A DNA stretch of 34,460 nucleotides, from NCBI GenBank assembly GCA_012030735.1, contig JAAUUW010000013.1:1-34460 (forward strand). Reading direction: 5' to 3'. The translations under genes and the position numbers were made by a program. The notes beneath the pieces were generated by a model. The model worked only from the letters and a program-made list of their open reading frames with translations, did no database searches and was not told where the DNA came from. Shown here one piece after another: positions 11,256-34,070 of the stretch. Positions within the stretch are counted from its first letter, which is position 1. Each line of letters begins with the position of its first letter. This stretch comes from Acaryochloridaceae cyanobacterium SU_2_1. GTDB taxonomy: Bacteria; Cyanobacteriota; Cyanobacteriia; Thermosynechococcales; Thermosynechococcaceae.

Positions 11256-12436
11256 ATGCGCGTAATTTTAATGACTGGAAAAGGTGGCGTTGGTAAAACC
11301 TCCGTCGCCGCTGCCACTGGCCTACGCTGTGCAGAGCTGGGATACAAAACCTTGGTCCTCAGCACTGACCCTGCCCATTCCCTCGCCGATAGCTTTGACC
11401 TAGAGTTGGGCCATGAGGCCAGCTCAGTACGGCCTAATCTTTGGGCAGCCGAATTAGATGCCCTCTTAGAGCTAGAGGGCAACTGGGGAGCTGTCAAACG
11501 CTACATCACACAAGTCCTACAAGCCCGAGGTCTAGATGGCGTTCAAGCCGAAGAACTCGCCATCTTACCCGGCATGGATGAGATCTTTAGTTTGGTGCGG
11601 ATGAAACGCCACTATGACGAAGGCATCTACGATGTTTTGATCATTGATTCTGCGCCCACCGGTACGGCCCTGCGGCTCCTCAGCTTACCAGAGGTAGGGG
11701 GATGGTATATGCGTCGCTTCTATAAACCCTTTCAACGAATGTCTGTGACCCTCAGACCGCTAGTGGAACCCTTCTTCAAACCAATTGTGGGGTTTTCCCT
11801 CCCCGATGCTGAGGTGATGGATGCCCCCTACGAGTTTTATGAACAAATTGAAGCCTTAGAAAAAGTGCTCACTGACAATAGCCAAACTACGGTGCGGCTA
11901 GTCACCAACCCCGAAAAATGGTAATTAAAGAATCCCTGCGTGCCCATGCCTATCTAAGCTTATATAACGTCTCCACAGACCTCGTGATCGCCAATCGAAT
12001 TATTCCCGATCATGTAACGGATCCCTTCTTTATGCAGTGGAAGCAAAACCAAAGCCAATATCGCCAAGAAATTCACGATAATTTTCAACCCTTGCCGGTC
12101 AAGGAAGCTCCCTTGTTTCAAGAAGAAATGTGTGGCTTGTCAGCCTTAGAGCGGCTGAAAGAGATTTTGTATGACCAAGAAGATCCGACCCAGATCTACT
12201 ACAAAGAAACCACCTTGCGAGTTGTTCAAGAAGAGGGTCAATATAGCCTAGAACTGTACTTGCCGGGGATTCCTAAGGACCAAGTCGAACTGAGTAAAAC
12301 AGCCGATGAGCTTAATATTACGATTGGCAATCATCGTCGTAACTTGGTCTTGCCCCAGGCATTGGCTGCAATGCAGCCCTCTGGAGCCAAGATGGAGGCT
12401 GATTATCTGAAAATTAAGTTTAGTAGCACTCCCTAA
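11256..12436 (+). pseudogene. ArsA/Get3-type ATPase with HSP20-like C-terminal domain, split by a 1-base frameshift
   Basis: Two overlapping frames together make one typical protein of about 394 residues. The first (11256-11924) carries the P-loop GKGGVGKTS at residues 8-16, the [10 protein letters not shown] switch and [16 protein letters not shown]. The second (11918-12436) carries the rest of the ATPase (IANRIIPD) and a C-terminal alpha-crystallin-like ArsA_HSP20 domain ([15 protein letters not shown]). Frame 1 ends NPEKW-stop at 11922-11924, where relatives read NPEK-MVIKES. One extra A in the run at 11914-11918 would join them. Homologues in the Get3/TRC40 family handle tail-anchored membrane proteins; arsenite pumping is unlikely without arsB. 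The break may be sequencing error, real mutation, or reinitiation at the ATG overlapping the stop (ATGGTAA). Confidence 0.85.
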
Positions 12437-12552
12437 AGACAGAGCCGCCTCCGTGGTCTGCTAGTTGCGAGAGAACGCGTTATAGAGCCTAGCGGTCACA
12501 CCCCCTCAATGTCTTAAGATAGTTGAGCAGAACTTAGGATTTACAAATAGCT

Positions 12553-32400: not shown

Positions 32401-34070
32401 GCGTCGGCTGCAACAGATTACCCTCAGCACCAATCGTTGTTTGCGCAGAGGTAATAATCGCTTCTCGGATCGAATCAATGGGCGGATTCGTCACCTGGGC
32501 AAACAACTGCTGAAAATAGTTGTAAAGCAGCTTAGGCTGATTAGACAACACCGCTAGGGGCGTATCCGTACCCATGGCCCCCAGAGCCTCCACACCATTA
32601 TTAGCCATGGGTGCAATTAACATCCGCAACTCTTCAAAGGTATAGCCAAAGGCCATCTGGCGCTGTAAAATCGTTTCCGGCTCATAGGGAGCAGGGATTG
32701 AAGCGGCGGGTGGCAGTTGAGCAAGGGCTACCATCTGCTCAGCTAACCATTGCTCGTAGGGATGCTCAGCAATAATTTGGTCCTTGATCTCCTGATCAGC
32801 AATAATGCGGCCCTGGGACATATCCACCACAAACATCCGACCGGGCTGTAAGCGACCCTTGCTCAGCACCCGCTCCGGTTCAATGGGCAAAACACCAGCC
32901 TCAGAGGCCATAATGACGAGATTATCCTTGGTGACATAGTAGCGAGAGGGGCGCAGACCGTTGCGATCGAGGACAGCCCCAATCATGGTGCCATCCGTAA
33001 AAGAAATGGAAGCTGGGCCATCCCAAGGCTCCATCAAGCAAGAATGATATTTATAGAAGGCTTTCTTCTGAGGACTCATGGACTCATGGGCAGACCAAGG
33101 TTCTGGAATCATCATCATCACGGCATGGGGCAGGGAACGCCCAGCCAAAAACAACATCTCCAGCGTGTTATCAAAGATCGTGGAGTCACTACCGTCAATA
33201 TTAATGACAGGCTGAACCTTAGCCATGTCCTCGCCAAAACAATCCGAGGCAAACAAAGACTGGCGAGCATTCATCCAGTTAATATTGCCCCGCATCGTGT
33301 TGATTTCACCATTATGGGCAATGTAGCGATAGGGATGGGCGCGCTCCCAACTCGGAAAGGTATTAGTACTAAACCGAGAATGCACTAGCCCCAAGGCACT
33401 TTCTAGATCAGGATCCTGAAGATCCAGAAAATATTGACCCACCTGAACAGGCATCAGCATCCCTTTATAGACAAGGGTGCGGCAAGACAAACTGGCAGGA
33501 TACCAAAAAGAATCCACATCACGGGTCCGCAGGGCCGTATAGGCTAGCTTGCGAATCACATAGAGCTGACGCTCAAAGGCCAAATCATCCACAAGATCAG
33601 GGCTACGTTGAATAAATACCTGTTGGATAAAGGGCTCGCTCGACTTAGCGCTATTGCCTAGGGAAGCATTATCTGTGGGTACATCTCGCCAGCCAAGCAC
33701 GGTTTGTCCTTGGGCCGCCACAATTTCAGAAAACCGTTGGCGACTCGCTTGCCGTTGTTCAGGGTTAGGAGAGGTATTGATCATACCCACGCCATACTCT
33801 CCCGGCGCTGGCAGCTCAAAATTTAGGCGCGCCGCCTCTTTTGCAAAACCTGTGGGGAATCTGCATCAAAATCCCAGCCCCATCCCCTGTATTTGTTTCG
33901 CAACCACAAGCTCCACGATGATCCAAATTCTCCAAGATCGTTAAGGCTTGTTCAATAATTTCATGGGATTTTTGCCCCAATTGATGAACTACAAAGCCTA
34001 GGCCGCAAGCATCATGTTCGAACTGGGGGTCATAGAGACCCTGCCGAGGGGGAAGTGCATTAGTATTCAT
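29479..34070 (-). pseudogene. gltB: glutamate synthase large subunit, interrupted by two small indels
   Basis: GltB makes two glutamates from glutamine and 2-oxoglutarate. Three frames cover it. The N-terminal piece (34070-33816) holds the propeptide and catalytic Cys22 (EHDACGLGF). The main piece (33790-29624) holds the rest, including the 3Fe-4S cysteines [15 protein letters not shown] and the GXGXG-rich beta-helix C-terminal domain. The last 51 residues (29634-29479; [17 protein letters not shown] onward) are in a third frame. Near 33845-33848 the family spacing [12 protein letters not shown] suggests two T are missing (minus strand); one extra T is the alternative. At 29640-29643 GGGG should probably be GGG, giving [10 protein letters not shown]. 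The restored length, about 1,530 residues, is normal. Since gltB is a core nitrogen gene, sequence error is my first explanation. Confidence 0.88.

Follow-up and report, generated by a model that had tools for sequence, protein, structure and literature searches.

Frame breaks in four conserved genes of a cyanobacterial draft contig most likely reflect consensus errors of the assembly

Four conserved genes of the window, which is the whole 34,460-base stretch analysed here (contig C39), switch reading frame and then carry on as if nothing had happened. Does the organism harbour damaged genes, or is the draft sequence wrong? DNA alignments with relatives identified six frame breaks in these genes (arsA-like, hsp70-like, ppgK-like and gltB; Table 1), four of them lacking one base, one lacking two bases and one carrying an extra base. 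Both the broken genes and this tally of losses and gains had been proposed in a preliminary description of the sequence and were confirmed here. In the multiple as well as in the pairwise alignments, all six indels lay at the coordinates of Table 1 or a few bases off. The multiple alignments comprised six relatives for arsA, seven for hsp70, two for ppgK and five for gltB, and some candidate loci (4 of 10, 3 of 10, 4 of 6 and 5 of 10, respectively) were left out because the alignment covered one strand only; in the pairwise set, each broken gene was aligned with its best reference. The aligned relatives agreed with one another in length at all six sites and none of them had the indels of the window, whose run lengths are taken here as written in the consensus contig. 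A tblastn frame check (identity of at least 45 percent and coverage of at least 0.6) likewise yielded six breaks in four of the 23 window genes with homologues and left the other 19 unbroken, in agreement with the earlier estimate of about 20 intact genes; about seven further window ORFs without a fetched homologue were outside this check.

The preliminary description had also placed every switch at a short homopolymer, and this applied to most sites. The second hsp70 break corresponded to one base fewer in a short C run and the 3′ gltB break to one extra G. At the 5′ gltB site, where two bases were missing, the gap lay directly beside the run that had been quoted. The exact base of the first hsp70 break was ambiguous, the multiple alignment placing it in a T run and the pairwise alignment in a G run about 10 bases upstream. 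Continuation of the protein in another frame was borne out by Pfam matches across the arsA and gltB breaks. ArsA_ATPase was matched from 1 to 217 on the first arsA piece and from 218 to 305 on the second, which also carried ArsA_HSP20 (HSP20-like domain at window positions 12233-12421), and GATase_2 was matched from 1 to 54 and then from 75 to 420 across the gltB break, in a protein that also presented Glu_syn_central, Glu_synthase and GXGXG. These matches did not extend to the remaining pieces: Pfam HSP70 matched the middle hsp70 piece and ROK the first ppgK-like piece, while no Pfam family matched the two short outer hsp70 pieces or the short second ppgK-like piece. The intact full-length relative L047 (533 aa) reached 90 bits where the DnaK cut-off is 822, and the Hsp70-family protein of the window is not a canonical DnaK. 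The gene adjoining gltB, which we take to be gltD from its sequence and position, without a family call, was counted among the 19 unbroken genes. A second glutamate synthase-like gene was observed on contig C22 (L076:2-3903); it was also frame-broken and was truncated by the contig start.

Table 1. Broken genes of the window, the unbroken neighbour of gltB and the copies of a recurring insertion sequence
Feature	Position	Strand	Details
ArsA/Get3-like ATPase with C-terminal HSP20-like domain	11256..12436	+	break at about 11914-11918, -1, A run
Hsp70-family protein	17349..18951	+	breaks at about 17673-17676 and 18770-18772, -1 each
ROK-family kinase (ppgK-like)	20748..21457	+	break at about 21168-21171, -1, T run
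gltB, glutamate synthase large subunit	29482..34070	-	breaks at about 33845-33848 (-2) and 29640-29643 (+1)
gltD-like gene	27940..29421	-	unbroken; 88 percent identity to L248 over full length
Insertion sequence	L121:1-124; L127:15699-15825; L072; L073; L082; L089; L118; L120; L129		relative copy L279:262-1755

The break density of the window was 251 per Mb; the loci of the orthologues in six relatives had about 22 per Mb (6 breaks over 269 kb). Individually, these relatives presented 2, 2, 1, 0, 1 and 0 breaks in 50.0, 60.0, 50.2, 42.5, 47.9 and 18.6 kb (identity 55 percent, coverage 0.7, loci assigned to genomes by hand). The preliminary description had proposed a survey of frameshift density over the genome, and sampling 16 percent of the assembly revealed an excess over the relatives. 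The assembly comprises 3.02 Mb in 206 contigs, with a completeness of 87.47 percent and a contamination of 3.6 percent. A variable protein of the window had a single close named match, in Acaryochloris sp. IP29b_bin.148 (65 percent identity), which points to an Acaryochloris-like cyanobacterium. The sample consisted of 40 contigs, with up to 20 kb of each, and was set against 20 stretches from each of two same-genus relatives, 7 of these 40 stretches having been deliberately placed over matches to window genes. When only the relatives' stretches served as references, 43 genes could be tested in the sampled contigs without the window, and 15 of them were broken, with 21 breaks over a total of 48.8 kb (430 per Mb), while the two relatives tested like-for-like against each other showed none in 16.3 kb and two in 15.9 kb. 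With all references the count was 39 breaks in 26 of 91 genes over 95.7 kb, a figure that is biased upward because L121 and L127 had been followed further on account of the many events that the coding model described below flagged in them. The restricted set is free of this bias, although its choice was not entirely random. Breaks were thus common throughout the sampled contigs, with about one in every 2.5 kb of the coding sequence that could be tested in the sampled assembly overall, and the window was not special.

Several individual breaks call for caution. Among the 21, the L084 break preceded the start of its gene and is probably not genuine, those in L112, L122 and L129 came from low-identity alignments, and the L076 gene had been deliberately included on both sides, its contig C22 being in the sample because of the glutamate synthase match. 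Without the L076 gene and the L084 break, 19 breaks in 13 of 42 genes remained. In the all-reference set, L127:5809 likewise looked like an upstream artefact. L088 was broken here and its orthologue in the relative G006 was broken too; the wider G006 control included some G006-derived references, and the like-for-like controls are the two given above. A homology-free coding-frame model, trained separately on each genome, made 144 calls of a switch in the 486,719 bases sampled from the assembly, versus 53 in 400,000 and 48 in 327,885 bases from the two relatives. The relatives' counts are mostly false calls, so that the excess is what matters, and totals were compared with controls because the overlap class of the model includes true breaks near start codons. 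This model detected 50 of 78, 29 of 60 and 34 of 51 simulated random indels, and in the window it recovered five of the six sites and made two further overlap-type calls. A search of the assembly for 23S rRNA, a non-coding sequence in which such errors would show, returned none.

The distribution of the breaks over genes was that expected from gene length. With all references, 26 of the 91 genes were broken versus 29.6 expected, with no excess scatter (p = 0.68), and dispensable genes were not preferentially affected. On the contrary, infB, nusA, pyrG and murC, all of them generally known to be indispensable, were hit, as revealed by DNA alignments and by families named on intact relatives. 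infB was broken at three junctions, two of which were resolved at the DNA level while the third was not alignable, and no second copy was found in the assembly, its other six matches being weak (33-39 percent identity). For the context of the indels we retained breaks with one gap of 1-2 bases, which kept 24 of 38 breaks (L084 and L127:5809 included) and dropped 14. Runs of at least three bases were touched by 20 of these 24 clean gaps, versus 24 percent in a null of simulated random indels (1,500 of 3,119 tries kept), and runs of at least four bases by 12 of 24, versus 7.3 percent (binomial p = 3e-8). The affected runs were short, mostly of 3-6 bases. There were 13 insertions and 11 deletions, the window itself being deletion-dominated, and in the sample insertions were as frequent as deletions also in longer runs.

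Protein constraint in the broken genes was indistinguishable from that in intact ones. We used nonsynonymous differences per site, synonymous sites being saturated, and pN was 0.151 after the first break, 0.157 in broken genes overall and 0.153 in intact genes (Mann-Whitney p = 0.50, broken versus intact), so that no relaxation was detected by this measure. Nor was there an excess of in-frame stops, with 18 in 95.7 kb here versus 43 in 269 kb of the relatives' loci. These 18 stops were located in 12 genes, eight of which had a single stop no more than 11 residues from an alignment end; the others were L116, with a single stop 15 residues from an end, and three genes with several internal stops. 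Random-looking breaks spread over the sampled draft genome, indispensable genes included, are almost certainly due to sequencing or assembly error. The homopolymer error suspected in the preliminary description is thus supported by the spread of the breaks, their proportionality to length, the indispensable genes among them, their homopolymer context and the unrelaxed conservation, and from these sequence comparisons we consider it highly probable that the six indels of the window are consensus errors of the draft assembly rather than biology.

Such errors could have arisen from indel-prone reads in which short homopolymers were called too long or too short. A wrong run length would then have persisted into the contig consensus, and each error would give an apparent frame shift to a gene that the organism itself carries intact; we infer that the reads differ from the consensus at the break sites. 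Contig ends shared about 124-127 near-identical bases (exactly 127, 126 and 126 in three sampled contig pairs). Shared ends of about 127 bases are a mark of de Bruijn assembly at k=127, and those seen here suggest a short-read assembly of this kind. Accurate 250-base Illumina reads could also give k=127, but they rarely contain such errors. A flow-based platform (Ion Torrent or 454) followed by de Bruijn assembly at k=127 may account for both features, the platform being our guess. What the breaks share with flow-based homopolymer error is the gain or loss of single bases at short homopolymers in proteins that are otherwise conserved. According to a study of the Ion Torrent PGM (PMC3623719), its errors are mostly indels, short homopolymers being over-called and long ones under-called, and from a run length of two upward deletions are commoner than insertions. 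In our data, by contrast, long runs were not clearly depleted and insertions equalled deletions where that paper leads one to expect deletions. The run-length spectrum, in which a platform signature was sought, gave no clear depletion of runs of at least seven bases relative to the relatives, and this, together with the equal insertions and deletions in longer runs, argues against Ion Torrent specifically.

Among the alternatives to consensus error, the one that fares best, although it is very improbable, is a mixed case in which a reduced, host-associated or relaxed Acaryochloris-like cyanobacterium carries some real, recent pseudogenes in addition to the errors of an error-rich assembly. A candidate is gltB, because the assembly has, besides the broken copy in the window, the glutamate synthase-like gene on C22. 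Even less credible is that the breaks as a whole are real pseudogenes, that is, genes recently decayed in a lineage under relaxed selection, for instance a host-associated one with a shrinking genome. At 3.02 Mb and 87.5 percent completeness the assembly is indeed small, six genomes of the same genus measuring 3.6-8.1 Mb, and its contig ends repeatedly carry one insertion sequence; each of these traits occurs in degenerating symbionts. Pseudogenes reportedly accumulate in reduced cyanobacterial symbiont genomes, which share with this assembly the many frame-broken genes, the repeated insertion sequence and the small size. In contrast to those genomes, however, the breaks described here tracked gene length instead of dispensability and reached infB, nusA, pyrG and murC, decay is contradicted by the broken infB, for which the assembly showed no further copy, and constraint after the break equalled that of intact genes, with stops no denser than in the relatives.

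The same results contradict the two biological readings that the preliminary description had left available, relaxed selection and slippage-prone replication, the latter being opposed in part by the open MutS-family frames. Real homopolymer slippage in a lineage deficient in mismatch repair would explain why the indels cluster at homopolymer runs, but slippage of real DNA favours long runs, whereas the affected runs were mostly of 3-6 bases, and indispensable genes would not tolerate it. In addition, MutS-domain frames of 889 and 594 aa were open, and loss of mismatch repair fits poorly with this check, which covered MutS. We give slippage next to no credence, and the same holds for genome-wide recoding by programmed ribosomal frameshifting or transcriptional slippage, which would restore the proteins and agrees with conservation carrying on in the other frame, but is contradicted by shifts in both directions at varied bases and run lengths, by the lack of a common motif in the alignments, as judged by eye, and by the absence of the indels at the six window sites from the aligned relatives.

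Consensus error being the preferred reading, these breaks do not point to any new biological system. Predicted genes, numbers of pseudogenes and claims of gene loss that are based on this draft should not be accepted as they stand, because about a third of the testable sampled genes (15 of 43) look broken, most likely by error. Claims of recoding or decay based on the same assembly would first need the reads.

The analysis also uncovered minor features of the assembly. The insertion sequence was present at the ends of 9 of the 41 sampled contigs (Table 1), with 87-94 percent identity to the copy in G002, where it is about 1.5 kb long and encodes a 424-aa transposase matching DDE_Tnp_1. Its two ends had another 36 partial matches in this genome, and each copy probably interrupts the assembly. 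A tRNA scan and an Rfam scan of the window returned no matches. At window positions 2638-2744, about 70-100 bases (near 2640-2740) matched all six relatives with 81-90 percent identity, and in the relatives the similar stretch adjoins the relative of the window gene at 9185-9670, presumably ruvC-like. Positions 7495-7531 matched their own reverse complement with 92 percent identity, and both stretches could, to judge from their sequences, be small mobile or structured elements.
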